64,000 nucleotides of DNA from NCBI GenBank assembly GCA_017619615.1, contig JAFZRY010000032.1, forward strand, positions 42,951 through 106,950, read 5' to 3'. Below the pieces are notes generated by a model, which was not told the origin of the DNA, did not search any database, and saw only the letters and a list, made by a program, of their open reading frames with translations. Source of the stretch: Lachnospiraceae bacterium. Lineage in GTDB: Bacteria; Bacillota; Clostridia; Lachnospirales; Lachnospiraceae. Position numbers and translations under genes: made by a program. Each line of letters starts with the position of its first letter. Position 1 is the stretch's first letter. Below, piece after piece: positions 2,838-64,000 of this stretch.

Positions 2838-2842
2838 ACCGG

Positions 2843-3850: not shown

Positions 3851-3856
3851 AGAATT

Positions 3857-34309: not shown

Positions 34310-35935
<1,626 letters not shown>

Positions 35936-35956
35936 TCACCAGCGGATAAGAACTAG

Positions 35957-35998
35957 AAAACCCGGGGAACCATGCTCGCATGGGGACCCGGGTTTTTT
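35957..35998 (+). terminator. groESL terminator
   Basis: AAAACCCGGG (35957-35966) pairs with CCCGGGTTTT (35987-35996). An inner CATG-ctcg-CATG stem caps the hairpin and TTTTTT follows. It lies 22 nt after the groEL stop. Confidence 0.92.
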
Positions 35999-36193
35999 AG
36001 TTCTTAAGCCGCGCCCTTCATGAGCATGCAGCAGGGGCAGGGGCCCCGCGGAATGCGAATGAAGGGGAGCACAGCGGGAGCGCAAGGCGCGGAGCTGTGC
36101 GGGGTGATCACATCCTGAGGTCTTATTATCTGTTAATTGGAACTTTTCTGAAAAACTCGAACTGCTCTATCGGAATTACGCTTCTTTGAATTG
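35999..36193. other. Gap between groEL terminator and the AT-rich island; no gene seen
   Basis: Bases 35999-36115 are GC-rich, rich in purine stretches (GGGGAGCACAGCGGGAGC) and encode nothing I recognise. Composition then switches to AT-rich near 36120, probably the left edge of the island carrying the next two genes. No direct repeat or attachment site is evident. Confidence 0.4.
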
Positions 36194-43913: not shown

Positions 43914-43993
43914 GTTTTTTCCTCTTTTGGTTTTTGAAATAGAGTTAACGTTCATTGACGGAAAGCGCGCGGGCGCTTTTCCCACAATTTTCT

Positions 43994-44022
43994 AATATAC
44001 ATTAAGTAAGAGTACGTGTCAA
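43994..44022 (-). promoter_or_regulatory. Promoter of the adhesin gene at 43913
   Basis: Read on the minus strand: TTGACA (44022-44017), a 17-nt spacer and TATATT (43999-43994). The leader of about 75 nt holds an imperfect GGAAAGCG/CGCTTTTCC hairpin (about 43961-43982). Confidence 0.78.
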
Positions 44023-44051
44023 CATAAAAAGGCGCCCGATGGACACCTTTC

Positions 44052-44076
44052 AAAAAAGGGCGGCCAATGGCCGCCC
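44052..44076 (-). terminator. Terminator of the adhesin gene at 44094
   Basis: On the minus strand GGGCGGCC-att-GGCCGCCC (44058-44076) followed by TTTTTT, 18 nt after the stop. The fourth copy in the window of this hairpin type. Confidence 0.88.
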
Positions 44077-44093
44077 CTGTGGGTTTGGTTTGA

Positions 44094-47000: not shown

Positions 47001-48065
47001 TCTCCAGTAGTTGCGGTCGTGGAAGACCTGGGGATAGTAGATGTAGAGGTAATAGTCGTCCGGATAATCGGTCATTTCGATCAGTTCATGCCAGGCGTCC
47101 TTGAAGTCCTGCGGGAAGACGTAGGAGGAATCGTTCCGGTGATCGTTCATGCCGTGGCTGACGCAGGAGCCGAGGTAGCTGCCGCCGGGTCTCCACTGGT
47201 AGTTGCCGTTATCGTCATAGACAATGGGGCCGGAGGTACCGTCGTTGTCCCGGCGGAGCAGCATGTTGTTGCCGTTCTCGTCGTTCGTTTTCAGCGAGTC
47301 GAGGTCGCCGTCAGTATACTGCTTGATGGCGATGGCCATGACGAGGTCCGTGATGGTGTCGTCAAAGCCGTATTTTTCCTTGATGTAATCGCGGTGATAG
47401 ATGATGGACACGACGTGGTCGTAGAGTTCCTGCGGCGTCAGTTCGAGCGTGCCGTCATAGCCTTTCCATTTGTTCTGGGCCAGTTGGTACAGCAGGTCGG
47501 GCGAGCCGACCAGGCGCTTGAAGCGGGCGTCTTCATCATCCGGGGTCGGGGCGTCGTAGTTCTGGTTGAAGCAGAATGCCCGGACCTGTTCGCCTTCGTC
47601 CTGGATGAAATAGGACTCGATACGGTCTCTGTAGGTGCCGCCGTGGCCGATGCAGTACGGCTCGTAGAGGGGATTGCCGTATTCGGCGGGGACCGTGATG
47701 CCCTGGATGTCATCGCGTTCCTCGGCTTCGGTCAGGCTGATGCTCAGCGCGGCTTCGCTCTTGCTGCCGTCGATCCGGTAGCCGCTGGGGGCGATGTCGA
47801 TGTAGACAAGGTAGTCTCCGGCGGGCAGGAAGAGGGAGAAGGTCGAGTCGGCGTTGGTCAGGGTCTGGATGATGTTGCCATCGGAATCCTGTACCCGGAC
47901 TCTGGCGCCGGAAACGGGGTTGCCGGCTTCGTCAACGACGCTGACGTAGACAGGTTTTTCGATGGTAGGACTGGCCGGCAGGTCATCGTCCGCGAGCGCG
48001 GTGCCGCAGACGGCCAGGACCGCGATCAGGATGAGGGCCGGAATGAGTCTCCACAGTTTCTTCAT
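44094..48065 (-). CDS. Cell-wall-anchored adhesin with thioester-type head and eight Cna-B repeats
   Basis: A 1323-aa surface protein. Signal peptide 1-25 (ends GTALA-D), a carboxypeptidase-regulatory/prealbumin-like domain (38-100, AGNPVSGARVRVQDSDG), then a thioester-like head with FCFNQ (Cys165) and AIAIKQY (Gln249). Eight Cna-B repeats follow (about 400-1110), each with V.K.W.D...RP..I.VHL.ADG, WKHTF..L and YTV.EDPV.GY, the E-box of isopeptide-forming domains. One Spy0128-like domain (GAKKNIEGEPED) and a PEETT stalk lead to PPPTGDDGS, a membrane segment and RRKKEA. Cna-B repeats form stalks stiffened by Lys-Asn bonds. The last 200 codons closely match the adjacent adhesin at 40524. The ribosome binding site is AAGGAGG. 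Confidence 0.9.
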   Translation of the reverse strand: MKKLWRLIPALILIAVLAVCGTALADDDLPASPTIEKPVYVSVVDEAGNPVSGARVRVQDSDGNIIQTLTNADSTFSLFLPAGDYLVYIDIAPSGYRIDGSKSEAALSISLTEAEERDDIQGITVPAEYGNPLYEPYCIGHGGTYRDRIESYFIQDEGEQVRAFCFNQNYDAPTPDDEDARFKRLVGSPDLLYQLAQNKWKGYDGTLELTPQELYDHVVSIIYHRDYIKEKYGFDDTITDLVMAIAIKQYTDGDLDSLKTNDENGNNMLLRRDNDGTSGPIVYDDNGNYQWRPGGSYLGSCVSHGMNDHRNDSSYVFPQDFKDAWHELIEMTDYPDDYYLYIYYPQVFHDRNYWRAWSEENVPGAINHYANLYYANDPQCMLSTFTVEPVRATLSLRQAVDVSITKVWVDGGNANGYRPTADEYASFIHLYADGTEVTSLYTDLRTCTDNGDGTYTVRFRDLPKNTGEGDNITEIVYTFSEDPVSHYWSVTGPDDRLEPGSTITNYEVTEIEVQKIWDDNGDAHHLRPTSISVTLLANGTEAGTATLNAENNWKHTFTDLQVYFDDGGTIPYEIREVEVEGYETVIGADGFTITNRELTDITVTKTWNDGENADDVRPESITVHLFAGDQEVASGTLNQENNWEYTFEDLYVYENGEEIEYTVTEDPVDGYSTVIDGFTIVNTQLIDIPVEKIWDDADDTDALRPAGVRVHLFADGEEIDAVTLDQDNEWKHTFTALPKYAENGQEIEYTIEEDDIEHYLASVEGFTVTNTLIQSIQVEKIWQDGDNASGTRPDSITVHLFADGEEIDSAVLDATNDWKHTFTDLPVFNGENRIEYTVTEDPVPGYETGILEFTITNRELTDIEVEKLWEDGDNADGLRPEQITVHLLADGEELDTAVLNEDNGWKHTFTALYVYTEDGVKIEYTVTEDPVEGYEAAIDEFTITNTQLTEVEVIKIWNDGDDLEGLRPAEITVHLLADGTEVATAVLNADNEWRFTFTELPKYKDGAEIEYTVEEVEVEGYESEIDGFFVINTLLRDIEVVKIWDDNDDAEGLRPVTITVHLFADGSEIEVVTLSEENGWKHTFTDLPAYHDGDEVFYTILEDPVKAYVTEIDEFTITNRHEHEPVSVTFGAKKNIEGEPEDTLTFTFTLTGGEDYTESVTIDGEGQEWFSELTFTDPGTYTFEVSEEIGSAAGWTYDTTVYTITVTVTDDGEGHLVAEVDGPEDNIAEFTNTYVPETTPEETTTPEETTTPEETTTPEETTPEVTTTPEETTTPEESTTVPATTTPTPPPTGDDGSILFFVVLIMAASTALAAILSRRKKEA

Positions 48066-48654: not shown

Positions 48655-48824
48655 GATTATGGGGTTATGGGGAATACTGTGCCCAAAGAAGAAACCATCG
48701 CAGGAACCGCTGTTTTGCCTGCGAAAAACCGTACAGGAAGCCCTGTACCCGTAGCTGAAAGAGTTGTTTTAAGCACATCATAACCGCCGCGAAAAGCTGC
48801 TGCGGCGGAAGGAAGGAGCAAGAA
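48655..48824 (+). promoter_or_regulatory. Structured 5' leader of the giant surface-protein gene
   Basis: Three perfect stems lie in order: CGCAGG/CCTGCG (48699-48704 with 48718-48723), GTACAGG/CCTGTAC (48731-48737 with 48742-48748, AAGC loop) and CCGCCGC/GCGGCGG (48784-48790 with 48802-48808). The last ends 2 nt before the GGAAGGAG ribosome binding site (48811-48818). No known riboswitch class is recognised. The arrangement is compatible with translational control. Confidence 0.45.
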
Positions 48825-51800
48825 ATGATAACAACCAGAAAGCGTTTGCTCTCACTGCTGCTGGCCTTTAGCATGGTCATCACGCTGCTGCCGCATGTTT
48901 CGCTTGCGGCGGAAAAAGAGCAGAAGCCAGGCACCAATGTGTCCACGGAGACTAAGGATTCTAAGGACACGAAGGAGAAGGATTCTTCGAAAATCGAAGA
49001 ACCAATTACACCTGTGGACGTCAGTGAACTCCTCGGGGACCGCGACGGTGAAGGTGATCTGTCGCCCCAGGAGATCCATGACAGGATCCACCAATATGCT
49101 GACAACCACTATATTTATGGCGCAGCAGAGTATACTCCCAAGCTGGAGATCAGCATCGTAGAATCCAGTTATACAGGCCCTGTAAAAGCCGGTTCTACGG
49201 TGGATTACATGATCAAATACCACTACCTGCGTCCTGACTCCTGGCAGCTCGGCTGGCCGGGCCTGGAGTTTATGGCGGACTGGTACGGCAAGGCAAATGA
49301 CGGAACACTGCTTCCGAACAAGTTGGTCGTGAAGCTTCCGGCAGGCCTTTCTCTGAAGGAGATCGGCGGCAGGACTGACAACCCTTATACGGAAGAAGAC
49401 GGATTCAAGATCTATGAATTGGATCTGGACCCGATCGCAGCGAACGACAAGAGCTTCTTCACGACCATCAAGATCTATGTCGAGAATAACGGCAAAGAAG
49501 GTTCCGTCAACGAGGATCCCGGGTATGTCTTCCCTGCGGACGCTTTCACGTTCACGTCTTCGTTCGAAATCGTAGACAGGCAGAACCAGGCCCCTTCCTA
49601 TGTCGTTGACACTTATACGCAGACCGTTTCGATCGCTCCCGAACCCATCAAGACGTACTCGCCTGATGTGTGGGCTGCGAAGAAGAGCAACCTGAATGCG
49701 GAACTGCAGACGGTCAGCGGCACTCAGATGGCCGTCTTCACCTGGGATATTGCCGTCGGTCTGCTGAACGAAGGCGAGACGCTGCTTCCCGGCAATATCG
49801 CGCCCGGTGTCGAGAACGATGAAAACTATTACAGCCGCAAAGGCCGTGAATACGTCGAATCGATCAAACTGACCGATTCCTTCGTGACGATGCTCAGCAA
49901 GGATGGCAATTATGTCACAGACATGGTCGACAAGTTCGTCATTCAGAAGTATACCGGCAATTCCACTGTCGGCGCTGAGTATGACCTGCTGGAAAACCCT
50001 GCGCCGGTGATCTGGGGCAGCGGCGCGGTCCAGAGTCTGGTGATGGACCAGGTCGAGAGCATCGACTCCGACGGTGATGAGCAGGCGGATACCTCTACGC
50101 CGATCTTCACCAAGTATCGCGTGACGATCGCCTTTGAGGTCGAAGAAGACTGGATCGGGCAGTTCCCGCTTCAGGACGGCTATGATCTGGTTACTACGAA
50201 CACGGTGACCATGGACGCGACCTTCGCGCATCTGGATGACCAGGTCAGCTATTCGACCGCGGAAGAACCGGTCGAACTTCCGACCACTCCTCCCGCCAAG
50301 CTGGAGTTCACCAAACTGATCCATCTCTATACGGGCGGCGAACCGGTCGACTACGACAAGAATTCGCATTCCCCGAGACTGAAGACGGGTTACGGCAACA
50401 TTCAGTACGTCATCAGCGCGAGCGAAGAGTTTTCCTTATATAAGAAAGTCGGCGAAGACACCTATGAAGTCATGGAAGGTTTCTCCGGCAGCAACAGCTA
50501 TACCGTCACCACTCATACGGAGTATTATCTCGAACCGGGTATCACTTACACCCTGTCCGAGGTCCTGAATGATGACCAGGCTGCGAGAATGACCCCCGTG
50601 GACGGCATCAGCTCCTATACGAATACGCCTGCGTCCGGGGACACCTGGACGGAGACCTTCGAGAACAAGGAGACTGTCGGCCGCGTCTGGATCCACAAGA
50701 CGGACGACAGCGGCAGAAACCTGGGCGGCGCCCGTTTCGGTCTGTTCCTGCCCGGCAGCGATACTCCGGTCGTAGCCGATGATACGGACGCCGGCACCGG
50801 CTACCTGTATTTTGAAAATGTTCCTTACGGCACCTACATCCTGCGTGAGATTCACGCTCCTTCCGGATACGCGCCTGACTTTGAGGAAATGACGATCACC
50901 ATCGATGCGGAACATGCGATCCCGACTGAGCCGATCGAAGCTTCCAACACCCTGACCGGCGTTTCCATCACGCTGATCAAGTACGTCGGCGGCGCGGAAG
51001 GCACCAGCCCTACGGATATCGCCACGACGGCCACCACCAGCTTCCCCGGCACCTTCGTCCTGCAGCGCAGGACGGCGGACTCCGCCTGGGAGGACGTTGC
51101 TGGCGTGTCCACCACCGTGGACGCCTACGGCAAGATCTACGCGGAAGTGGACGCCTTCGCGAGCGACGGCAAGGTGTATTACTACCGCTTCGTGGAAACG
51201 ATGCCGGACGGCTACTATGATCCTGTTACCGGTGCGACCGGCACGGTCTACGGCCCTTCCGAAGACGGTATCACGCTGACTGATGACAGCGGCGCCGCTC
51301 AGCCTAAAGAAGTGAAGATGTACAACCGTAAGATCTTCAGCATCAAGGCTGACAAGAACTTCTACACTATTAAAGATGACGGCACTACTCAGATCGAAGC
51401 CAAGACGACCTCCGTCACGCTGTACAAATCCGTAAACGGCGGGACTCCTTCCCCTGTCGGAACGGATACGTTCGGCTGGACGAGCACGAACCCTGAAACT
51501 CACAAGTACGCCGAGTGGTCGAACCTGCGCGGCTTCGAAAATGGCCAGAAGGTCACCTACCTGCTGAAGGAATCCGAGCTGGAAGGTTATGTATCGGCCG
51601 CCGGCAACCTGCTTACCGTATGGGACGTCGATGATTCTTACTATAAAATCAATACCGACGCGCTTCCCGGTGACGCGACGTTCAAGCCGCTGCTGCTGAA
51701 CTATCGTGACATCATCCCGATGTGGATGTACAAATATGATTACGGTGCCACCAATTCTTTCGTGAAAGGCGCCAAGTTTACCGTTTACGAGAGTGACGGA

Positions 51801-54800
51801 ACCACTATCGCCAAGGATGCGAAGACCGGTGCTGAACTGAAAGACATCGAGATCACGAGCAATCCTTATAAGTTCTTCCTGGAAGCCGGTAAGGTTTACT
51901 ACTTCGTAGAAAATCCCACTACCGGCACTTCGGACGGGAAGCCTTGGCACTGGAAAGCGTACTGCAACGGCAAGACCAGTACTATTCAGAACACTGATCT
52001 CCACACGAACTCCAGAGGCACGATCGATTTAAGCGGCGAGCATCAGCCTGCGCGGACGAACAATTCCACTTCGACCGCGAAGTATTACCGCGCTGCCATG
52101 TACAACCAGTACGAGCCTATCGTGAAACTCAAGAAGGTCAGCTCGCTGGCTCCCAACGGATCTCACATCAGCGGCGCGAAGTTCAAAGTCTATACGAAGA
52201 CGGCGGACGGCAAATTTGCTCCGTATCCGAGCGCAGCAGATCAGTACGAGATCTCGGCGACGAACGGCAACGTTGACGGAAAGTACTTCCCTGCGGCTGC
52301 TGACGGGACGACTTACTACTTCCGTGAGACCACGGTTCCTGCCAACTATCTGGATCCCGATGAGAACTTTGATCTGTATCATGCTCTGGATCCTAAATAT
52401 GAACAGGGCCAGATCGTAGGAGAAGGAACGGATCTCCACACCTTCTACCCGGTCACGATCACGAATGTCAGTACCAGAACGACAAACGTCTTCAGCTTCA
52501 CATTCAAGGATATTCCGAACCTGGGCAGCCTGAAAGTCAAGAAGACCGTTGACGGCGTACCGTCCGCGGGCTTTGACATCACGGTCTCCCCGGGCAACAT
52601 CCCGCCGGTCACTACGGATGCCAACGGCTACGCTGTTTTCAACAACCTTCCTGTTTATGATGAAAACGGACAGCTGATCCAGTATACCATCGGCGAGGCA
52701 ATGAACCCGGCGCAGCAGAAGCAGTACATCCAGGTCAGCCCAGACCAGACTGCGACGCTGACGCTGAACACGGTCACCACGGTCGACATCAACGGCGATG
52801 AACTCCTCATCGAAAACGAGACGAGAGTCTCCGTCACCACCACCAAGGTCTTCCGCAGAGCCTGGGAATACGGCTTTGTCGGCTGGGACTACCTGATGCA
52901 GGGCGCGACCATCGGCCTGTTCAAGTATGACGCGGATACTGATAAGTGGGTGCTGGTGCCTGAAAGCGAGCTTTCCGCCCCCGGCAACGAGAACCCTCAG
53001 GATACTGACGGCGCCGGCCAGGTTTGCTTCACCGGCCTGCAGCGCGGCGTGGACTACATCCTGGTCGAGCTGGCTTCCGGCAACGACTCCATGTATCCTT
53101 ATCAGGACGGCGGATTCAAGGAATTCCCTCCTGAGTACGTACTGAACAGCGGCATCCCGGATGATGATCTTCACCTTTACAATGTTCTCCATCTGAACGG
53201 CTCTGAAACGGTGTTCGATCCGCAGGATCCTCAGTACGAGTTCGAGACCGAACGGATGGTCAACTCCAACCACTGGGTACAGTTCCACATCAAGAAGTGG
53301 CTGGATGCGACCTATGACATCGATCCGGAAACCCACGAGATCATAACGCATTATGCGGATGCGACTGAGAGACCGAATCCTGATGAGGATACGCTGCTTG
53401 ACAACGCAGTCTTCGAACTGTACCGCATCGTCATGCCGGACAATGTGGATGAGGTCACCTTTGATGTAACCGGCTGGGAGGATCCTTACAATGTGGATCC
53501 TTACGTCTGGACCCGTATCGGCACCTACACCTCCGGTACGATGTATTTCAATGACGAACGCCAGACCGGTGAATTCATGACCGACTCCGACCAGGACATT
53601 AATGATCACTACGTCTACCTGCTGGTGGAAAAGAACCCCGGCCCTACCGGCGCCCTGATCAACCCGGCCTGGAAGTATACTTTCTGGCACGCAGAGGGAA
53701 CGGATTACAGTGTTAACATTCCGGGCTATACGGCCCGCGATCTGGAGTACACGATGGATTCCATCAATAATGATGAGATCCTGAACGCCACTCCTCACGG
53801 CCCCGGCCCCGGCAGCATCATCTACCTGGCCAGCGTCCGTATCGCGAAGTGGCAGGACAGCTACGATCTGGAATCCGGCAATCTGAACCGCGATTACCAG
53901 CCGCTGCCCGGCGCCGAGTTCGAACTGACGCTGCCGAACGGTACCGTGATCAGCGAGCTGACGGTCGGTCTGGAAACGGCCATGCAGGGTTCGCACGGCG
54001 CTGCCATCGCGCAGAGCGGTACTTTCCTGCTGCGGATCAACGATGACGGCACTTATGATCTGGTAGACTACGAGGCGTCCGACGAGGATGCCGAAGGCGA
54101 TGTCGTCAGCTACCCCGTTGACGCGGAACCGTTCAGCTTCACGCAGACCATCGACGGACAGGAAGTGGTCTTCAACGGATACCGCATCCTGACCTATCTC
54201 CAGGAAGTGTATGCCCCTGAAGGATACAGCTACATCTCGGATCCTTATCCGATGTATCTGTGCTTCGTCAACGTCCTGAAGACGGAAGACGGCGCCTCCT
54301 GGGTATTCAATGATGCCTACTTTGTCCTGACCAGCGGCAAGAATACGACGGAAACGTTGGCTGAGAACCAGATCGGCACCTCCTTCCTGGTCCATCCGAC
54401 CGCTTCCGGCGATTGGCAGATCAGCTACGGCGACGGCCAGTCCCCGCTGCGTATCGTGGACTACCCTACCGAAAACACGATGGTGTTCGTGCAGAAGTAT
54501 GGCTACGTACCGAACGAGAACACCCGCAACCTGACCAGTGACGGCCTGGACGGCGAGGATCCTTCCTCCATCGGCCGGATCGCCCTCGGCGGCGTTGACT
54601 TCTATATTCAGAAGTACGATCCGGAAGAAACAGGCGCCAATAAGTGGAAATACTGGGATTACACCGAGGATAACTACGGCACCGCGGAAAGCGCGAAGTT
54701 CTCGACTCCCAATGACGGAAGAGAATACAAATTCCCGAAGGGCCTGCCGGAAGGTACTTACCGCATCTGGGAAGATTCCCTGAACGTCCACGAGTCCGAT

Positions 54801-57800
54801 TACGAAATGGCCTATCCGGAAAGCAGACCTCGTGTCTTCACCGTGACCAAGGCCACCGCGCACATCCACCTGTACAACCCGAAGAAGGTCTCTCTGGAGA
54901 TCGTCAAAGAGGATATGGACGGCAACGCGCTGGAAGGCGTGGCGTTCGTCCTGACCCCTACCGAAGGCGATCCGCTGAACGCGGTCGAAAACGCCGGCGT
55001 GTACACTTTCTATAATATCCCGACCGGCACCTACGTCCTGTCCGAAACGAAGGCGGGCTACTCCTCCGCATATCTGGAGATGTACCTGAACACGCTTTCC
55101 TCCGGCCTTGGCAGCCTGGCGACGACCGGCGCCCTGATCGGCTATGAATGGAACTATCCGACCGGCGGCGAGGAGACCGACGACAGAGATGTGTCCATCT
55201 CGGAGATCTACCCGCTGACGGATGCGACTCTGGAACTGACCATCAAGAACCCGAAACTGGTCAACGTCAATCTGACCAAGATCAAGGAAGGCAATCCTGA
55301 CACCAAGATCAAGGGTGTCGGCTTCAACGTGTACTACAAGCCTTTCCCGGTGCTCAGCGGCGACGTGACCATGAGCATTCCGGAAGCTGCCTTCACCACC
55401 AGCGTCAGAGGCGCTCAGACGCAGATGGAAAATGACGGCTGGACCGTCGTGGGCGGCACTACCGGTTCTCAGAACAACGCGAAGAGATGGAACACCGGCA
55501 ACAACGGCGTCCTGTCCTTCACCAACCAGGAACCCGGCGTTTACGTCTTCCTTGAAACGGATGCCACTACGGAATACAGCATCATCAAGGATATTGACAA
55601 CAGGCACATCTTCTATGTGGCTGTCGTGACCGGCGGTCTGGATGTCAATGTGAACTTTACGCCTACCTCCGCCACGATCAAGGATTACTCGACCGGCGGC
55701 AACAAGACCATCACCACCTACTTCGAGGCGGCGGACGACGTCACCGCGAACTTCACGGTGGAGAACCGCCCGAAGGTCAAGATCCAGGCCACCAAGATCG
55801 TGGATGCGCACGAACTGACGCTCAGCAACTCCGACGACTGGGCCGTGATCCTGAACCTGTGGAGCGATCCTTCCCACGTGGATGATCCTGAGCAGAAACC
55901 GTACGCTCTCGTTAAACTGACCAAGACCAGAAAAGCCAACGACGCCACCAACTACCCCGGCCCCGGCCCTCTTGATTTCAAGACCAGCCTCTCGGCCAAT
56001 GCCGGCGCCCGCTGGTTCGCGGTCGGCGACACCTACTATCTGCAGGAAGTCATCGTGACGCCGGAAGGCCACATGATGATCCAGAAGGTCAAGCTGAACG
56101 GCCAAGAGCTGACGGCGAACGAAGACGGCTTATACGAGATCACCATCGCCGGCGACCAGACGATGTCTCTCGAGATCACCAACGACTGGCTGTACGGCCG
56201 CGTCATCTTCACGAAGTACGATGCGGATCAGCCTACGACGCTGCTGACCGGCGCTGCCTTCGAAGTCCGTTACCTGAAGGACGGCGAGTGGGTCAAGGTC
56301 CCGGATTCCACCGTAGTGGAAAGCCCGACCCTGCCCGGCACTTATGTGGCCGACTTCCCGCTGGTCAGCCCGGAAGCCACCGAATACCGCATCTTCGAAA
56401 CGGATCCGCCGGAAGGCTTCCTGCCGAATCCGAACCTGTACGTCTCCTCGACTCTGTCCAAGGATCACAACCTGGATGAGACCGGCCTGAGCATGCCGAA
56501 CAGCAAGGGTAACTGGATCACCATTACCAAGTACGGCAACGTCCATGACGCGACCGGCAAGCAGTGGACGGTCGAAGACGGCAAGGTCGAATTCGATCTG
56601 TACATGCTGGTTGACGGCGTGTGGACCTGGCAGGAGTCGAAGGCCGTCGCCAACGGCGGTATCGTCCAGTTCCTGACCATCCCCGGTGAGATCTACGCCG
56701 TCAAGGAAGGTTACTTCGACATCAACTACTACAACGGTCTGGAAAGCATCTGGCTCGGCGATACCGAACTGTTTCCGATCACCGTGACGGACGACAGCGG
56801 AAATAAAGTCGCAATCTACGTACTGGGCGAAAGCACCGGCGCCGTGTCGCTGAATGCCTACAACATCCCGTATATCAGACTGAGGATCGAAAAGGCTGAT
56901 ATCGGTAAGTACCAGGGCGAAGAAGAGAACAACAGAGTCCAGGCGTTCATGTCCTATTCCATCTATGAAGTAACGGAAGAAGACGATCTGCCTCTGGAGC
57001 CTACCCGCGCCCAGGTGGAAGAATTCATTGCTACTCATGAATCGCTGATCGACGGCACCACGGAAGATTATGATCCGGATATCCTGGCCAACGGTACCTA
57101 CTCGTATTGGGAGTCGAGCGATCCCGCGAAGCGCTGGAATCCTGACAAGACCTACCTGCTGGTCGAGACCGACATCGGCGCGAACGGCGACGGCGACTAC
57201 GATACGCTGCGCAAGGACGATCCTCGCGTGAAGTGGTATGACGTGATCGTACCGGAACCCGATCCGAATCCGGACAACAACCTCTTCTACAGACTGGAGA
57301 ACATCTACGGCAATGCCAAGGTGACTCTGGAAAAGACGGTCGTCAACGGTGCGGACGGCGATACCGACAATGACGTCCGCGACGGCGCGGTCGAGAGCCT
57401 GATGAAGGGCCCCCGGAAACTGATCTACACGATCACTCCGACCGTCACCGGCAAGAACCAGATGCTTGACAACTTCATCCTGGAGGAGAAGGGCCTGACC
57501 TTTACGCCTTCCTCGATCGCGATGAACTACAGCTTCACCAAGCTCGTCATCGGTCATGCTTCTCACCACATCGATCCCGACCTGCTCGGCATCAGCGACG
57601 CCACGATCTCCGCGAAGGTATTCTTCTACGATGATCCGGCTGACGACGCGCAACCGATCAGCACGAAGGAGATCGCTGATATCAGCGAGGATGTGACGAT
57701 CACGGATATCCCTACTGCGGCCAGGTACTTCAAGGTCCTGTACTACAGCCAGGATGTGATCGACCGCACGGCCGAAGGCACCGGATTTGACAACCGGTAC

Positions 57801-60800
57801 AGCCTCGGCGAAGAATTCAGAGTATGGCCTACGACGGTTTATGTCACGGTCGCCAAGCAGGCGAACGGCACGTACGGCGCCGGTGTCGATCCGGTCACTG
57901 AGATCCGGAACGACGTCAGCGCTACGCTGGGCTATCCGAAGTGGGCGAGCGACGGCTCCGGCACCTCCCCGGCGGGCAATACCGCTGTTGCCGACGAAGA
58001 GATCGTCGTGAACCCGATCGAACGGCCTAAGCTGCAGGTCATCAAGAAAGTGCAGCCTACGGTCGTCAACTTCGGCACCGAAGGTGTGGCCCATGTCGTT
58101 TACAGGATCGAGATCACCAACAAAGAGGGCGGTGTCGACTTTGTCAACCCGGTCGTCACGGATATCCTTCCTACGGCTGTCTACTATGAGAATGTGACCA
58201 TCGGCACCGGCTCGGCCGGCGAAGTGTTCACCATGGAGACCGACCCTGTCGTGACGGAAGGCGAACCCAGCGTGGTCACGATCGACGGACAGGAAGTCAG
58301 CGAAGCGGAGACCGCCGTGACCTTCTACCTGACCGGCACGCTGAAGAGCGGTTCGACAGTCGTCCTGCTCATCACCGCTAAGGTATTGCTGGCGGCAACT
58401 TACTTCGCCGGCTCCGAGTTCCAGAACGACGTTTACCTGTCGTCCAATGACCCGAATCATTACTACACTACGGATAACCCTTACGGCTGCACCTTCACGG
58501 ACTACGGCGGGAACAACGGCAAGACGCTTGCTGAAGAAGCGGCAAGACGCGGCGGCACAGCTCCCAGCCGTGAGGCGGCCCTGGATGAAGACCTGGGCGA
58601 TCTGGCCACGATGCATTACCCTGCGATCAGCGCTTCGGCCTTTGTGACGGTCGGCAACATGACCTCCGTCACGCTGTCCAAGGCTGTTCAGGGCGATAAG
58701 GATGCCGGCTTCCATGAGACCGGCGTCGGCACGGCCAGCCGCTCCAACGACCACACCGGCAAGATCGGTTCGGTCGAATGGCGTCTCGCCGTCACCAACG
58801 GTTATACGCAGAAGGACTACATCAACAAGCTTGTCCTCGGCGACGTGATCCCGAAGGAAGACGACCTGCTTGAGTCCGCGTGGACCAACAACATGGTTGC
58901 CGTTACCAGCGCGCTCAACAACATGGTCCCTGTTGACGACTACGTCGTGTACTACTACACCGGCGCGCAGCCGTCCGCGTTTGCGGCGATGACGGAAGCC
59001 ATCCACGATGTGACCCTGCTGATCCCGGCGAACGGCTGGTATCCTGCCTCGAGCTTTGCTCCGGCGCCTGAACCGGCCGATCCGGATCCGTACTTCGATG
59101 ACGACAACGAAGCGTGGAATGCGCTGAAGTCCGTCACCGCGTTCGTCGTAGTGTTCGGCGATGACGTCCATCTGGAAAAGAATACGACGCTCCTCCTGAC
59201 CTACACGACCTACGTAGTCAACATCCGCGATGACGATGTCTTCAACGATGAGTACGCGTTCACGAACGCCAACAACGAATTCTATATCACCTTCGACTAC
59301 TACGGCATGAACGACGCGGCCTCCAACCCCGTCTCCGTCACGCTGATGGACAAGCTCGTAGATGTGGAAGGCGACGTCTGGATCGATGAAGACCAGCTTG
59401 GTGTTCAGACTCATTACCGCGACCGTCAGAATTACCTGGATTACCTGATCATCCAGGAACTGGCCGACAGCATCAGCTTTATCGCGCAGGATAACCGCAC
59501 CGGCGACGGCGTCCACCCGACGTTCATGAACGATACCGGCGACCAGGTGGCCCTGGAGGATATCCGCAACGAGTCGATCAAGCACTTCAGATTCGAAGAA
59601 CTGAGCCCTGCCAAGGTCCAGCTGGCTGCCAGCCTGTACCATGAAGACGCAAACGGTCACATGGTGCTGAACCCTCTGGCCCTGAAGGGTCTGGATGCTT
59701 ACAACTACTACCTGAGAGCAACGGTGGAAGACAGCTCGGACGACAACATCCTGTCGGAGATCTTCAAACTCTCGCCGCTTGGTGAAGAGCACTACATGTC
59801 GGATGAGGTCACGGGCGAAGACTTCTATACGGACAACGGTCACGCGAAGGACAACAACTTCTACGATCCGTCCACCAGAGCCATGGTCAAGACTTACGAG
59901 ACCTCGCCGTTCTTCCTGCCTTACTCGCTGCTGACCGACCAGTCCAAGGATATCGGCTTCATGATGTTCCGCGAACTGGAGATCAAGAAGGTGGCCGCGG
60001 ATGATACCGAGACCGTCGTGGAAGGCGCGGAATTCCAGGTATTCGGCCCGTTCAACGAGAACAAGGGCACTTCGGCGAGCGGCAGCGCTCTGCTGTTCAA
60101 CCTGGGCGATGACGGCGTTTACAGACTGGTCAAGGAAACCGAAGACGGCTACATCCTGCTGAAGGAGGAAACTCCTGTTGAGACCACGACGGATAAGCTG
60201 TACACCGATGAAAACGGTCTGATCAAGATCGCAGGCCTGAACTGGTGGAAAGAATACGTCATCCAGGAAACGAACCATGCCGAAGGCTATGACCTCGGCA
60301 GCCTGGTCGCGACCGCGAACAACGAAAGCACGATGATCGCTCCTGTGGAAGGCAGCGACGACAGCTTCACGCTGAAGATCCCGGGCACCACCAAGATGAC
60401 GCCGGCGGATCAGGTCGTGGTCAAGAACCTCCGCAGCGTCAAGGTACAGCTGAGCGTGGAGAAAGTCCTCGAGACGCTGTCCACGAAGACCTACAGCTTC
60501 TTCTTCAACTACAAGCTCGTCTCGGTCACTCCGACCACCACGGCGGAACTGAACGAAGACCTGATGGCACTGGATCCGATCAACGACGAACCGCTCGAGA
60601 TCGTGGTCACGGGCGAAGCCGACGGCTCCGCATTCGCGGTGGGCAGCTTCGACGAGATCACCCTCTACGGCGAAGGGACCTACGTATTCGAGATCACCGA
60701 GCTGACGGATGAGAACTTCCCCGGCGAGTTCGACGAACTCCTGGTGAAGACCGCGACCGTCACGGTCGTCTGGGACGAAGACGAACAGAAGCTCGTTGTG

Positions 60801-63800
60801 GACGATATCGTTTACAGCGAACCCGACACGATCGAAGGCCTGGACTACGAGAAATTTACCAATAAGTACGAAGCGGAAGGCGAATGGACGCCCGAAGCCA
60901 AGAAGAAACTGGTCGGCCGTCCGATCGTTGAAGGCGAATTCACCTTCACGGTGAAAGAAGACGGTACGACCGTAGCGACCGGTGTTGTGGACGGCGAAGG
61001 CAATGTGGTCTTCACGACGATCGAGTACCCTGACCTGTCCTACGTCGGAACTCACACCTACGTGATCTCCGAAGATGAAGGCAGCGCGCCCGGTGTCACC
61101 TACACCGATGAGACCATCACGGTCACCGTCGTTGTGGACGACGTCTGGGATGAGACCGAACAGAAGTACATTCTGAAGGCTACCAGCGTAACCTACGAAC
61201 CTTCCGACAAGACCTTCATCAACACCTTCGACGCCAAGGGCGAATTCACGCCCATCGCCTTCAAGGTCCTGAACGGCCGCGACTTCAACGAAAACGAAGT
61301 CTTCACCCTGACCCTGACGGACGAAGAAGGCACTGTGGTGGCGACCGGTACGGTCAGCGGCGGCTCCAACGGCACGCCCGCGCAGTTCACCTTCAACCCT
61401 GAGAAGCTGACCTATACGCAGCTTGACCTCGGCCCGAACTACTCGCCGAAGACCTACACCTACACCCTCACCGAGACCAAGGGCGAAGCCGGCGGCGTGA
61501 CCTACAGCGAAGTAGAGTACACGGTCCACGTGACCATCTCGCTGCATCAGAACGAAGACGGCACCTACAGCGACATCCTCGATGTGGAAGACGACATGCC
61601 GGAAGACGGCTACTACTTCACCAACACCTATGAGACCATCCCTGCGGCCCTGACGCCGGAGGCGAAGAAGTCCATGGAAGGTGAACCGATTCCGGAACCC
61701 ATGACCTTCGACTTCGTGATGACGCTGAAGTCCCAGAAGGACGAGGAAGGCAACAACATCACCGACGCGGCCTACCTGACCAACGATCCCGATACCTTCA
61801 TCAAGGTCGGCGACAACTGGACCAAGTCGGTCACGATCCCGAAGAACGGCACCACCGGTTCCGTCAGCTTCGACGAGATCACCTACGCCAAGACCGGCAC
61901 CTACGTCTTCGAGATCGTTGAGACCCCGGGCACCAACACCCATATCGACTACGATCCGGCCGTCTGGACCTACACCGTTGTGGTCACGGACGACAAGGAC
62001 GGCAACCTGGTGGCGGTGGACGATTACAGGCTGAACGGCGGCTCCGCGCAGTCCGGCCCGGCTGAATTCGTCAACACCTACACGCCTACTCCTACCACGG
62101 AGAAGGTCAAGGTCCAGAAGATCCTGACCGGCCACCCGCTGTACGATGCCGAGCACACCGTGTTTACCTTCCACCTGAGCTTCCTGCAGGCGAACGTCTC
62201 CAACGGTTACATCCTGCCGGAGAACACGACTGTGGAGATCCTGGGCTCCGACGCGGAAGCCGGCAATGCGGACTCGATCAAGTGGTTCGACCCGATCACC
62301 TTCACCAAGGCTGGCATCTACCAGTTCCTGATCGAGGAGGAGCAGGGCGACAATCCGAAGATCACCTATGACCCTCAGAAGTGGGTCGTGACCATCACCG
62401 TCACCGACATGCTGGGCAACCTGGCGGTCACCGCGGGTCCTTCCTACAAGAACCAGGCGACCTCCGACCAGGCTGACTGGGCGATCTTCACCAACAACTA
62501 CAATCCGGATGACACCTACCTGCAGCCTCAGGTGGACAAGGAACTGATCCAGGCGTTCGGCCCGACGGTGGAAGATAAGGAATTCACCTTCAAACTGACG
62601 CCGGATCCGAACAACCCTGTCGATGATGAAGGCAATCCGGGCGCGATCATTCCTGCGGGCGGCGACGTCACCACGCTGACGATCCCGGCCGGCAGCACCG
62701 CGCACCACATCGCCCTGTTCGGCCAGATCCGCTTCACGGTGGCCGGCACCTACATCTTCACCATCACTGAGGATGAAGGCACTGACGCCCACATCGGCTA
62801 TGACCCGGCTGAATGGACGCTGACCGTCGTGATCGTGGACAATGACGGCGAACTCGAAGTTGACACCGACAACACGGGCTACGACAAGGGCTCGGGCAGC
62901 AACTCCGAGAGCGCGATGATCGAGAACAACTACGTTCCCGAACCGACCTACCTGCAGCCCGGCCTGGACAAGACCGTCACCAACGAGTACGGCCCGACCG
63001 TTGAGGATAAGATCTTCAACTTCAAGCTGACGCTGAAGTCTCAGAAGAACGCGGCCGGTGAAGACATGGAAGGCGGCGTGAACATCCCGGACGGCGGCGA
63101 CAAGGCCACCCTGTTCATCCCGGCGGGCGCCACCAATGCGACCACGCACTTCGGCATCCTCGAGTTCGTAAAGGCCGGCACCTTCGTATTCGAAGTCACT
63201 GAGGACAAGGAAGACGAAGAAGGCATCACCTACGACGAAACCGTGTGGACGCTGACGGTCGTCATCGTCGACAACGACGGTGTCCTGGCCGTGGAGAGCG
63301 CGGACTACAGCGACGGCGACCACGCCGATCCTGAGATGGCGCACTTCACCAACCCGTACAAGCCTGAACCGACCCACTACCAGCCGAAGGTCACCAAGGT
63401 CATCACCATCGACTACGGCCCGACCGTCCGCGAGAAGATCTTCAACTTCGAACTGACGCTCCTGACCCAGGTCAATGCGGCCGGCGAGACCATCACCGGC
63501 GGCGTGATCATCCCGGACGGCGGCGACAAGGCCACGGTCACCATCCCGGCGGGCGGCACCACCGACATCGCCCTGTTCGGCAACCTCGAATTCGTCAAGG
63601 CCGGTACCTACACCTTCAAGATCGTGGAAACCGCGGAGAATGAAGAAGGTATCACCTACGACGCGGCCGAGTGGACGCTGACCGTCGTGATCCGCGACAC
63701 CGACGGTGTCCTGGTCGTCGAAAGCTACGCGTACGAGAAGGACGGCGAGATCGTCGACCACTCCGAAGCCACGTTCGATGAGGACGGCAAGCTGGTCGAG

Positions 63801-64000
63801 GAAGTGGCCGACACCGTGATCGGCGCCGAGTTCACCAACCCGTACAAGCCTGAACCCACCTATTACCAGCCGAAGGTCACCAAGGTCATTGAGATCGACT
63901 ACGGTCCTATCGTCCGCGAGAAGATCTTCAACTTCGAACTGACGCTCCTGACCCAGGTCGACGCGGCCGGCGATCCGATCACCGACGGCGCCATCATCCC
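48825..64000 (+). CDS. Giant multi-domain surface adhesin (at least 5058 aa, 3' end beyond window)
   Basis: From the ATG at 48825 (GGAAGGAG 6 nt upstream) the frame is open to the window end. A signal peptide (residues 1-28, cut near SLA-A) is followed by a Lys/Asp/Ser linker and a head of unknown fold. From about residue 620 there are many SpaA/prealbumin-like modules with the E-box pattern: GTYILREIHAPSGY, TYYFRETTVPANY, GTYRIWED, GTYVLSETKAGY, YRIFETDPPEGF. Around residues 3068-3200 lies a DUF11/fimbrial isopeptide-like domain (IKKVQPTVVNFG). From about residue 3870 at least nine Spy0128-like domains of 140-160 residues run in tandem, each with a K near the start, an EGTY/AGTY strand, an E-box and FTN at the end. 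By family these form Lys-Asn isopeptide bonds. A wall anchor would be expected beyond the window. Confidence 0.9.
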   Translation, partial: MITTRKRLLSLLLAFSMVITLLPHVSLAAEKEQKPGTNVSTETKDSKDTKEKDSSKIEEPITPVDVSELLGDRDGEGDLSPQEIHDRIHQYADNHYIYGAAEYTPKLEISIVESSYTGPVKAGSTVDYMIKYHYLRPDSWQLGWPGLEFMADWYGKANDGTLLPNKLVVKLPAGLSLKEIGGRTDNPYTEEDGFKIYELDLDPIAANDKSFFTTIKIYVENNGKEGSVNEDPGYVFPADAFTFTSSFEIVDRQNQAPSYVVDTYTQTVSIAPEPIKTYSPDVWAAKKSNLNAELQTVSGTQMAVFTWDIAVGLLNEGETLLPGNIAPGVENDENYYSRKGREYVESIKLTDSFVTMLSKDGNYVTDMVDKFVIQKYTGNSTVGAEYDLLENPAPVIWGSGAVQSLVMDQVESIDSDGDEQADTSTPIFTKYRVTIAFEVEEDWIGQFPLQDGYDLVTTNTVTMDATFAHLDDQVSYSTAEEPVELPTTPPAKLEFTKLIHLYTGGEPVDYDKNSHSPRLKTGYGNIQYVISASEEFSLYKKVGEDTYEVMEGFSGSNSYTVTTHTEYYLEPGITYTLSEVLNDDQAARMTPVDGISSYTNTPASGDTWTETFENKETVGRVWIHKTDDSGRNLGGARFGLFLPGSDTPVVADDTDAGTGYLYFENVPYGTYILREIHAPSGYAPDFEEMTITIDAEHAIPTEPIEASNTLTGVSITLIKYVGGAEGTSPTDIATTATTSFPGTFVLQRRTADSAWEDVAGVSTTVDAYGKIYAEVDAFASDGKVYYYRFVETMPDGYYDPVTGATGTVYGPSEDGITLTDDSGAAQPKEVKMYNRKIFSIKADKNFYTIKDDGTTQIEAKTTSVTLYKSVNGGTPSPVGTDTFGWTSTNPETHKYAEWSNLRGFENGQKVTYLLKESELEGYVSAAGNLLTVWDVDDSYYKINTDALPGDATFKPLLLNYRDIIPMWMYKYDYGATNSFVKGAKFTVYESDGTTIAKDAKTGAELKDIEITSNPYKFFLEAGKVYYFVENPTTGTSDGKPWHWKAYCNGKTSTIQNTDLHTNSRGTIDLSGEHQPARTNNSTSTAKYYRAAMYNQYEPIVKLKKVSSLAPNGSHISGAKFKVYTKTADGKFAPYPSAADQYEISATNGNVDGKYFPAAADGTTYYFRETTVPANYLDPDENFDLYHALDPKYEQGQIVGEGTDLHTFYPVTITNVSTRTTNVFSFTFKDIPNLGSLKVKKTVDGVPSAGFDITVSPGNIPPVTTDANGYAVFNNLPVYDENGQLIQYTIGEAMNPAQQKQYIQVSPDQTATLTLNTVTTVDINGDELLIENETRVSVTTTKVFRRAWEYGFVGWDYLMQGATIGLFKYDADTDKWVLVPESELSAPGNENPQDTDGAGQVCFTGLQRGVDYILVELASGNDSMYPYQDGGFKEFPPEYVLNSGIPDDDLHLYNVLHLNGSETVFDPQDPQYEFETERMVNSNHWVQFHIKKWLDATYDIDPETHEIITHYADATERPNPDEDTLLDNAVFELYRIVMPDNVDEVTFDVTGWEDPYNVDPYVWTRIGTYTSGTMYFNDERQTGEFMTDSDQDINDHYVYLLVEKNPGPTGALINPAWKYTFWHAEGTDYSVNIPGYTARDLEYTMDSINNDEILNATPHGPGPGSIIYLASVRIAKWQDSYDLESGNLNRDYQPLPGAEFELTLPNGTVISELTVGLETAMQGSHGAAIAQSGTFLLRINDDGTYDLVDYEASDEDAEGDVVSYPVDAEPFSFTQTIDGQEVVFNGYRILTYLQEVYAPEGYSYISDPYPMYLCFVNVLKTEDGASWVFNDAYFVLTSGKNTTETLAENQIGTSFLVHPTASGDWQISYGDGQSPLRIVDYPTENTMVFVQKYGYVPNENTRNLTSDGLDGEDPSSIGRIALGGVDFYIQKYDPEETGANKWKYWDYTEDNYGTAESAKFSTPNDGREYKFPKGLPEGTYRIWEDSLNVHESDYEMAYPESRPRVFTVTKATAHIHLYNPKKVSLEIVKEDMDGNALEGVAFVLTPTEGDPLNAVENAGVYTFYNIPTGTYVLSETKAGYSSAYLEMYLNTLSSGLGSLATTGALIGYEWNYPTGGEETDDRDVSISEIYPLTDATLELTIKNPKLVNVNLTKIKEGNPDTKIKGVGFNVYYKPFPVLSGDVTMSIPEAAFTTSVRGAQTQMENDGWTVVGGTTGSQNNAKRWNTGNNGVLSFTNQEPGVYVFLETDATTEYSIIKDIDNRHIFYVAVVTGGLDVNVNFTPTSATIKDYSTGGNKTITTYFEAADDVTANFTVENRPKVKIQATKIVDAHELTLSNSDDWAVILNLWSDPSHVDDPEQKPYALVKLTKTRKANDATNYPGPGPLDFKTSLSANAGARWFAVGDTYYLQEVIVTPEGHMMIQKVKLNGQELTANEDGLYEITIAGDQTMSLEITNDWLYGRVIFTKYDADQPTTLLTGAAFEVRYLKDGEWVKVPDSTVVESPTLPGTYVADFPLVSPEATEYRIFETDPPEGFLPNPNLYVSSTLSKDHNLDETGLSMPNSKGNWITITKYGNVHDATGKQWTVEDGKVEFDLYMLVDGVWTWQESKAVANGGIVQFLTIPGEIYAVKEGYFDINYYNGLESIWLGDTELFPITVTDDSGNKVAIYVLGESTGAVSLNAYNIPYIRLRIEKADIGKYQGEEENNRVQAFMSYSIYEVTEEDDLPLEPTRAQVEEFIATHESLIDGTTEDYDPDILANGTYSYWESSDPAKRWNPDKTYLLVETDIGANGDGDYDTLRKDDPRVKWYDVIVPEPDPNPDNNLFYRLENIYGNAKVTLEKTVVNGADGDTDNDVRDGAVESLMKGPRKLIYTITPTVTGKNQMLDNFILEEKGLTFTPSSIAMNYSFTKLVIGHASHHIDPDLLGISDATISAKVFFYDDPADDAQPISTKEIADISEDVTITDIPTAARYFKVLYYSQDVIDRTAEGTGFDNRYSLGEEFRVWPTTVYVTVAKQANGTYGAGVDPVTEIRNDVSATLGYPKWASDGSGTSPAGNTAVADEEIVVNPIERPKLQVIKKVQPTVVNFGTEGVAHVVYRIEITNKEGGVDFVNPVVTDILPTAVYYENVTIGTGSAGEVFTMETDPVVTEGEPSVVTIDGQEVSEAETAVTFYLTGTLKSGSTVVLLITAKVLLAATYFAGSEFQNDVYLSSNDPNHYYTTDNPYGCTFTDYGGNNGKTLAEEAARRGGTAPSREAALDEDLGDLATMHYPAISASAFVTVGNMTSVTLSKAVQGDKDAGFHETGVGTASRSNDHTGKIGSVEWRLAVTNGYTQKDYINKLVLGDVIPKEDDLLESAWTNNMVAVTSALNNMVPVDDYVVYYYTGAQPSAFAAMTEAIHDVTLLIPANGWYPASSFAPAPEPADPDPYFDDDNEAWNALKSVTAFVVVFGDDVHLEKNTTLLLTYTTYVVNIRDDDVFNDEYAFTNANNEFYITFDYYGMNDAASNPVSVTLMDKLVDVEGDVWIDEDQLGVQTHYRDRQNYLDYLIIQELADSISFIAQDNRTGDGVHPTFMNDTGDQVALEDIRNESIKHFRFEELSPAKVQLAASLYHEDANGHMVLNPLALKGLDAYNYYLRATVEDSSDDNILSEIFKLSPLGEEHYMSDEVTGEDFYTDNGHAKDNNFYDPSTRAMVKTYETSPFFLPYSLLTDQSKDIGFMMFRELEIKKVAADDTETVVEGAEFQVFGPFNENKGTSASGSALLFNLGDDGVYRLVKETEDGYILLKEETPVETTTDKLYTDENGLIKIAGLNWWKEYVIQETNHAEGYDLGSLVATANNESTMIAPVEGSDDSFTLKIPGTTKMTPADQVVVKNLRSVKVQLSVEKVLETLSTKTYSFFFNYKLVSVTPTTTAELNEDLMALDPINDEPLEIVVTGEADGSAFAVGSFDEITLYGEGTYVFEITELTDENFPGEFDELLVKTATVTVVWDEDEQKLVVDDIVYSEPDTIEGLDYEKFTNKYEAEGEWTPEAKKKLVGRPIVEGEFTFTVKEDGTTVATGVVDGEGNVVFTTIEYPDLSYVGTHTYVISEDEGSAPGVTYTDETITVTVVVDDVWDETEQKYILKATSVTYEPSDKTFINTFDAKGEFTPIAFKVLNGRDFNENEVFTLTLTDEEGTVVATGTVSGGSNGTPAQFTFNPEKLTYTQLDLGPNYSPKTYTYTLTETKGEAGGVTYSEVEYTVHVTISLHQNEDGTYSDILDVEDDMPEDGYYFTNTYETIPAALTPEAKKSMEGEPIPEPMTFDFVMTLKSQKDEEGNNITDAAYLTNDPDTFIKVGDNWTKSVTIPKNGTTGSVSFDEITYAKTGTYVFEIVETPGTNTHIDYDPAVWTYTVVVTDDKDGNLVAVDDYRLNGGSAQSGPAEFVNTYTPTPTTEKVKVQKILTGHPLYDAEHTVFTFHLSFLQANVSNGYILPENTTVEILGSDAEAGNADSIKWFDPITFTKAGIYQFLIEEEQGDNPKITYDPQKWVVTITVTDMLGNLAVTAGPSYKNQATSDQADWAIFTNNYNPDDTYLQPQVDKELIQAFGPTVEDKEFTFKLTPDPNNPVDDEGNPGAIIPAGGDVTTLTIPAGSTAHHIALFGQIRFTVAGTYIFTITEDEGTDAHIGYDPAEWTLTVVIVDNDGELEVDTDNTGYDKGSGSNSESAMIENNYVPEPTYLQPGLDKTVTNEYGPTVEDKIFNFKLTLKSQKNAAGEDMEGGVNIPDGGDKATLFIPAGATNATTHFGILEFVKAGTFVFEVTEDKEDEEGITYDETVWTLTVVIVDNDGVLAVESADYSDGDHADPEMAHFTNPYKPEPTHYQPKVTKVITIDYGPTVREKIFNFELTLLTQVNAAGETITGGVIIPDGGDKATVTIPAGGTTDIALFGNLEFVKAGTYTFKIVETAENEEGITYDAAEWTLTVVIRDTDGVLVVESYAYEKDGEIVDHSEATFDEDGKLVEEVADTVIGAEFTNPYKPEPTYYQPKVTKVIEIDYGPIVREKIFNFELTLLTQVDAAGDPITDGAII
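62505..64000. repeat. Tandem near-identical pilin-like domain repeats within the giant gene
   Basis: Units begin at 62505, 62937, 63363 and 63849 (spacings 432, 426 and 486 nt). The last two share long stretches of identical DNA (for example the segments encoding YQPKVTKVI and VREKIFNFELTLL), and the array continues past the window edge. The 486-nt unit carries an extra acidic insert (around HSEATFDEDGK). Confidence 0.9.

Follow-up and report, generated by a model that had tools for sequence, protein, structure and literature searches.

A gene of at least 15 kb from an uncultured Lachnospiraceae bacterium probably encodes a giant, isopeptide-stiffened fibrillar adhesin

The window analysed here, a stretch of 64,000 nucleotides from the genome of a Lachnospiraceae bacterium (G000, contig C7, positions 42951-106950), ends within one gene which probably encodes a giant single-chain, sortase-anchored and isopeptide-stiffened fibrillar adhesin of at least 6366 residues. 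This reading is considered probable on account of the Lys-Glu-Asn triads of its modules and the continuity of the gene. From the N- to the C-terminus, the protein is laid out as a signal peptide, a head (residues 86-492), 18 candidate SpaA/Cna_B-type modules, a DUF11-like region, at least 16 FctA modules, a Cna_B domain and a wall anchor (Table 1).

Table 1. Position of the giant gene, its parts and its divergent neighbours within the window (amino acid residues refer to the giant protein).
Feature	Positions	Strand	Content and basis
Second neighbour, 1153 aa	40524..43985	-	thioester domain (TED), three FctA, PPPTGDDG sorting signal
Divergent neighbour, 1323 aa	44094..48065	-	eight Cna_B, one FctA, PPPTGDDG sorting signal
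Shine-Dalgarno-like AAGGAG	48813..48818	+	upstream of ATG 48825; read from sequence
Giant gene	48825..64000	+	5058 codons in window, open at contig end; taken as continuing on C17 (L009:2-3856)
Signal peptide, residues 1-29	48825..48911	+	by eye
Head, residues 86-492	49080..50300	+	without significant match in Pfam, NCBIfam, PDB sequences
Body part 1, residues 492-2830	50298..57314	+	17 candidate SpaA/Cna_B-type modules S1-S17; 9 supported by Pfam over cut-off or profile link
DUF11-like region, residues 2830-3440	57312..59144	+	Pfam DUF11 over cut-off only at ~3070-3211 (1.5e-5)
Unassigned block (B1), residues 3440-3715	59142..59969	+	holds VEGDVWIDED
S18, SpaA-type module before stalk, residues 3715-3868	59967..60428	+	Pfam
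FctA (Spy0128-like) stalk	60426..63998	+	8 complete modules and a cut ninth
Start of ~163-aa (489-bp) unit array, site of contig break	63354..63998	+	sequence

The original prediction of a frame that runs stop-free from ATG 48825 to the window end over at least 5058 codons was borne out, as the ORF 48825..63998 comprises 5058 codons without a stop and is open to position 64000. The stop is missing from the window because the window end is at the same time the end of contig C7, which is 106950 bases long. The first ten residues (MITTRKRLLS) are common to the giant protein and to the protein of its congener G203 (record JAFRRM010000033.1, a Lachnospiraceae MAG from goat omasum), and residues 1-29 fit, by eye, the signal peptide that had been proposed, with similar N-termini being found in G203 and G201. 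Domain matches beyond chance were obtained with Pfam for both SpaA (7.5e-28) and FctA (6.8e-81), and these profile matches support the earlier idea of a single giant surface-protein gene in which SpaA/Cna_B-type modules are followed by FctA modules. The two parts of the giant protein contain seven cysteines within their 6342 residues. For a regulatory RNA before the giant gene, no candidate reached the threshold of its family. Opposite the giant gene, antisense ORFs of 2543 aa (56130-63761, minus strand) and 1358 aa (52029-56105, minus strand) were observed, which are best read as shadows of codon bias: the giant sense frame uses TTA three times, CTA not at all and TCA once among its 5058 codons, and due to this scarcity the antisense frame stays open.

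Stop and sorting signal, both of which had been expected past the window, were found on another contig of the same genome (C17, 161786 bases), which was identified by searching the genome with the last kilobase of the window. The first 2.26 kb of C17 contain copies 82-88% identical to this query, and the contig is open from base 2 to base 3856, corresponding to 1284 aa with FctA modules, one Cna_B domain (3.1e-21) and a Gram_pos_anchor match (5.3e-4), the tail of which reads IPDTGDTS followed by a hydrophobic stretch, then KKKRKEEDEEEK and the stop. C17 starts within the 489-bp (163-aa) repeat array in which C7 breaks off. The last 92 bases of C7 match C17 329-420 exactly, but C17 8-420 overall is only 88% identical to the C7 end, hence the C7 end and the C17 start are considered to be different repeat copies. 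With a period of 489 bp, the smallest gap between both contigs amounts to 69 bp, that is 24 residues when the flanking bases are included, and the frame is kept. From this phase we infer that C7 and C17 belong to one gene, the sequences themselves being unjoined; its minimal product would have 5058 + 24 + 1284 = 6366 aa (~0.70 MDa, with 558.7 kDa for the C7 part and 140.7 kDa for the C17 part), plus 163n for further units. The gene has at least 15 kb and most likely 19 kb or more.

Relatives of the gene bear on this join. The G203 ORF of 5549 aa, open at its contig end, is 62% identical to residues 1-5058 of the window's own protein and 82% to residues 1-667 of the C17 part. In G314, which belongs to another family of the order, a single ORF of 6507 aa, open only at the 5' contig end, was found with 34% identity to residues 57-4229 and 53% identity to C17 residues 736-1280, ending in a PETGD sorting signal; this predicted product is the strongest evidence for both halves being one gene. 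The G204 and G205 contigs end inside the array, and past it they carry genes that also follow it on C17, namely a 470-aa protein, FKBP and, at a greater distance, amylase in G204 and RtcB in G205. That the giant ORF arose artificially during assembly, or is a two-gene chimera with C7 and C17 deriving from different genes, is highly improbable. Such an error would be favored by the fact that both contigs end in repeats and were linked by phase, as well as by the G203, G204 and G205 contigs likewise ending in this array; however, independent assemblies hold single ORFs of 5549 and 6507 aa with the same order, the latter of which spans both halves, and the repeat phase on the two sides of the gap is compatible with a single frame. 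As a side aspect, the 470-aa protein directly downstream on C17 (L009:4238-5650, plus strand) has SpaA and Cna_B matches and an N-terminus ~30% like that of the Cna_B neighbour in relatives, with no sorting signal being seen by eye, and a further ORF of C17 (L009:8032-8934, minus strand) combines GNAT acetyltransferase and NUDIX domains.

In the body, SpaA was found over the Pfam cut-off at residues 620-697 (S2), 1100-1180 (S6), 2023-2077 (S12), 2194-2255 (S13) and 3717-3826 (S18), and Cna_B at residues 1262-1301 (S7, together with its neighbours in frame), while S4 (21.4 of 22.3 bits), S5 (14.9 of 23.1 bits) and S10 (12.7 of 23.1 bits) stayed below the cut-off. Block B1 holds the motif VEGDVWIDED, which we take to resemble SdrD_B. 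Complementary information came from an all-against-all profile comparison of 24 segments with a link cut-off of 50, for which 99% of 576 reversed decoys scored below 3.5 and the highest 25.4. Here, S1, S2, S5, S6, S12, S13 and S15 form one group and S4 pairs with S7, while S3 and S18 score 47 and 46 against S6 and thus lie under the cut-off; both head halves, the DUF11 region, block B1 and the remaining S segments had no partner at 50 in this comparison. The links add S1, S4, S5 and S15 to the six Pfam-backed modules, by which 10 of the 18 candidates are supported. The other eight (S3, S8, S9, S10, S11, S14, S16, S17) possess neither a Pfam match over cut-off nor a link of at least 50, and among them S3, S8, S9, S11, S14, S16 and S17 rest on invariant triads and S10, lacking a triad, on a weak Pfam match only.

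E-boxes of the type Y.[LIVFR].E were counted 22 times in residues 1-3372, as compared to a mean of 3.7 and a maximum of 12 in 2000 shuffles, and the at least a dozen such motifs that had been claimed for the first two thirds were hence surpassed. Conservation of the putative bond-forming residues was derived from an alignment of G000, G203, L062 and G314 (pairwise identity 33-67%), in which 20 glutamates of YxxxE motifs are invariant, some of which (e.g., 1955, 2715, 2996) may not be true E-boxes. An invariant Lys precedes 17 of them by 45-115 residues and an invariant Asn follows 13 of them within 22-55 residues. The Lys-Glu-Asn triads that had been called for are thereby invariant in the four homologues for 11 of the 20, as compared to a mean of 3.4 and never more than 9 in 5000 random draws, a control in which any Lys or Asn of the body could be drawn and which takes no account of conserved residues being clustered.

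For the stalk, Pfam gave FctA (PF12892) matches over the curated cut-off for seven full modules in the window part and for seven full and one partial module on C17 (14 full). By reading, eight complete modules were assigned to the window and seven to C17, to which the smallest model adds one composed of the two cut ends, resulting in at least 16. As a consequence, the at least nine pilin-like domains predicted for the last third hold by reading (eight complete and one cut), but not by Pfam with its seven full matches. Alignment of the 15 complete FctA modules left only four invariant columns, two of which are Lys and Glu, both thus being invariant in 15 of 15; as the module ends were set at Asn, this residue provides no independent count. 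In FctA, the triad follows the order Lys, Glu, Asn, and reference triads for FctA and Cna_B have been tabulated (PMC12617251). The C-terminal Cna_B domain aligns with the collagen adhesin B repeats of known structure (1d2p, 1d2o). The window contains just over one 489-bp unit, and Tandem Repeats Finder listed no array of this period in it. Repeat identity was derived from four genomes, which together supplied 14 units with a length of exactly 489 bp; no unit of the window passed the length rule. These units are 73-93% identical in DNA, with means of 83.8% within (19 pairs) and 83.2% between genomes (72 pairs), by which homogenisation of the repeats within a genome is unsupported. In the four genomes of the genus in which the array was found, each array is cut by a contig end, and because the contigs end inside the array, gene lengths obtained from these short-read contigs are minima; the giant gene thus shows how short-read assemblies break such repeat-bearing genes.

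The observation that the N-terminal region following the signal peptide holds no recognisable head domain was confirmed, as searches of Pfam, NCBIfam and PDB sequences gave no significant match. Precisely, residues 86-492 matched no Pfam or NCBIfam family at 0.01, and two head slices searched at E up to 10 yielded only weak unrelated hits (0.06, 0.13), one slice being without matches. The head alone had no match among PDB sequences, with the good hits of profile A2 beginning behind the head, and a known adhesive domain was not found at the N-terminus (residues 86-492) in any of the three collections. Within the head, residues 101-200 constitute the least conserved 100-residue stretch as compared to G203 (30 identical). 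A first scan of genome contigs with the head alone found no relative; scanning with an alignment of three heads returned 27 loci, three of which (L060, L061, L062) cover the head, while 24 match only from query residue 467, i.e., in the SpaA-type part. The head with the first modules was present in three of 16 genomes of the genus (own, G203, G201) and a C-terminal match of at least 76% likewise in three (own, G205, G204), with some match at 0.001 in 13 of the 16. Among 200 genomes of the family, sampled with one per genus, the head was found in the own genome only. The body profile A3 was detected in three of 392 genomes of the order (own, G314, G198) and in two of 391 genomes of the class (own, G198), both samples overlapping.

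Among the distant homologues, L062 (record CACYXE010000030.1, MAG RUG12358) gave a single alignment that spans residues 117-3868 (31.5%), and collinearity of the body extends across ~3750 residues in L062 and ~4170 residues in G314. After the body, L062 seems to turn to a stretch in another frame that is Cna_B-like by eye, a frame change which may be an assembly error. Before the head, a CHAP domain (PF05257) was identified in both L062 (1.3e-10) and G314 (1.6e-7), and both domains share the Cys of DWC and the His of HVGIV. The CHAP loci are L062:7352-9990 and L091:2-1000, and L062 also possesses, ahead of CHAP, an array whose repeats are short and contain Cys. Other Clostridia records (L064, L066, L073, L077) hold ORFs of 2807-3969 aa, stop to stop, with SpaA-type matches, two of which are cut by the fetched end; the tails of L064 and L066 resemble sorting signals. 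Going by these ORFs, it is not uncommon for these MAGs to encode wall proteins that are several thousand residues long.

The CHAP domains raise the idea that the fibre mainly serves to present a tip with enzymatic or antibacterial activity, or acts as a shield or matrix protein, the window version having lost CHAP or never possessed it. This is considered unlikely: the position of CHAP before the head, its conserved Cys and His and the collinear body of L062 and G314 would fit, but Pfam detected no CHAP match in the window protein, and the N-terminus of G203, as aligned, leaves no room for it. Moreover, CHAP domains also occur in ordinary wall remodelling. A farther-reaching and improbable suggestion is that head and ~3750-residue body form one ordered apparatus which is kept collinear between families rather than being random spacers, with an exchangeable stalk (FctA, or apparently Cna_B in L062) and a tip consisting of the head alone or of a CHAP peptidoglycan hydrolase ahead of it. 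Such an apparatus would act as an arm of long reach, binding the walls of neighbouring gut microbes and, in some species, also cutting them.

Anchoring of the protein was approached via the sortases of the genome. Searching with PF04203 (E <=0.001) gave one match, located on contig C32, which with 21.8 of 26.6 bits is below cut-off and which is of the class B type (TIGR03064, 147.3 bits, below the NCBIfam cut-off of 153.75); a class C sortase was found neither in the gene cluster nor in the genome (~91% complete). As the one sortase found is of class B type, a single-chain fibre is more likely than a polymerised pilus. The latter would require the giant protein to be a pilin-type subunit and a class C sortase to polymerise its FctA modules, giving a pilus of many subunits. 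This possibility is judged to be very unlikely, even though two pilin families, FctA and the TIGR03786 pilin linkage domain, are represented and the SpaH/EbpB model gave a weak match to the neighbouring TED protein (1.5e-4, below cut-off), since the sole PF04203 match is below cut-off and of class B type, and a chain of 6366 residues is long without polymerisation. The stalk domains and the C-terminal wall anchor fit the plan of fibrillar adhesins. The sorting signal of the giant protein reads IPDTGD, that of both divergent neighbours PPPTGDDG, and by their predicted products the giant gene and these two divergent wall-protein genes (40524-48065) form a surface-protein cluster; in G203 both neighbours are found in the same order (78% over residues 1-857; 80% over residues 11-1018). 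Outside of the cluster, a Clostridiales-1 RNA (RF01699, 107.4 bits) locates to 35933-36110 (plus strand), directly at the end of the cpn60 gene, and the chaperonin is followed, ahead of the surface-protein cluster, by a Schlafen group 3 type helicase gene (36849-38633, plus strand) for which the examined G203 stretch gave no match.

For the fibrillar adhesin favored here, the suggested mode of action assumes that the giant chain is exported by its signal peptide and that its C-terminal IPDTG signal becomes joined to the cell wall, most likely by the class B type sortase of the genome. At least 16 wall-proximal FctA modules would be followed further out by 10 supported (up to 18 candidate) SpaA/Cna_B-type modules, each of which most likely closes a Lys-Asn isopeptide bond helped by a Glu, and modules thus closed would give a stiff, protease-resistant stalk. 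One such module is ~4-5 nm long, and ~38 modules would add up to roughly 150-190 nm, by which the original prediction of a fibre of hundreds of nanometres is overstated. The head would thus be held at the fibre tip at this distance from the wall, where it probably binds a gut surface (host, feed particle or other microbe); as the head is without a known adhesive domain, adhesion is unproven. We infer bond formation, anchoring enzyme, adhesion and ligand from sequence.

Divergence between G000 and G203 was found to vary along the gene, with dS being 1.26 (1.01-1.62) for residues 30-600, 0.60 for 600-800, 1.38 (1.02-2.14) for 800-1200, 0.28 (0.23-0.32) for 1200-2700, 1.02 (0.88-1.20) for 2800-4000 and 0.56 for 4000-4800. 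In this single species pair, divergence thus appears higher in the head and in an internal block than in the middle of the gene, as if through recombination exchange. The neighbouring genes showed a dS of 0.42 (TED protein) and 0.45 (CnaB protein), and nine nearby genes 0.09-0.81. This background was obtained from 23 window ORFs compared with G203:C31:26001-60000, of which 15 gave a hit and eight did not; nine were used and six dropped, namely 11453- (dS 0.61) and 38638- (0.16) as short partial matches, 25656+ (0.32) as antisense shadow, and 14565+ (dS 0.93, dN 2.06), 17588+ (0.91, 0.77) and 18535+ (0.09, 0.16) due to an implausibly high dN for which the codon alignment was distrusted. The contrast of the giant gene with other genes is no more than suggestive and is weakened by two of the dropped rows (0.91, 0.93) being near its high dS. 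Positive selection left no sign, as dN/dS is <1 in all 200-codon windows (0.57 and 0.35 for the first two, 0.69 at the highest). The series G203, G204 and G205, followed by the more distant L062 and G314, offers natural material for tracing how the rates of change differ between head, body and stalk.

Giant isopeptide-type fibres are best described from bacteria linked to disease, and the present protein would add one from uncultured gut Clostridia, several times longer than usual fibrillar adhesins and with an N-terminal head that had no known relative in the searches made. The original prediction of a protein far larger than usual adhesins is correct with respect to its giant size, but giant self-crosslinked adhesins are already known: the Mobiluncus mulieris adhesin has 7651 aa with 51 domains, 33 of them predicted to form isopeptide and 18 ester bonds (PMC10619420). 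This adhesin is a clear precedent, larger than the 6366-aa minimum reported here, and both share a giant single chain, an LPxTG-type anchor, dozens of Ig-like modules of self-crosslinking kinds with many isopeptide ones among them, and a shorter homologue in a sister species. In the Mobiluncus adhesin, 18 of 51 domains are of the Cpe0147 ester-bond type and a putative TED resides in the N-terminal region (PMC10619420); the giant protein, in contrast, gave no such Pfam hit at 0.01, its modules are of the SpaA/Cna_B and FctA types, and the TED sits in a neighbouring gene. Fibrillar adhesins likewise combine an N-terminal head, a SpaA and Cna_B stalk and a C-terminal sorting signal (PMC8286594), whereas here the head is without a known adhesive domain and the stalk is FctA-rich. 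Periscope Proteins are similar in being wall-anchored single chains with a tandem repeat stalk poorly resolved by short reads (PMC9704523), but differ in that the 489-bp units are 73-93% identical here and no more alike within than between species. With FctA/Spy0128-type pilins, the protein shares the FctA module with Lys, Glu and Asn in that order (PMC12617251), but it unites at least 16 of them in one chain, and a class C sortase was not found. UniProtKB was reported to hold more than 41000 proteins over 5000 aa, with surface proteins being a main bacterial group (PMC11573180), and among the matches listed, the open-access literature described neither giant FctA proteins nor this family from rumen Lachnospiraceae. 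What is unusual in the predicted architecture is the collinear 3750-residue body shared with distant homologues and the CHAP domain before the head in two of them. Next to the systems named above, the giant protein is hence a new and large representative of a fibre type already known from bacteria, with a head that was not recognised and a body of unusual collinearity.
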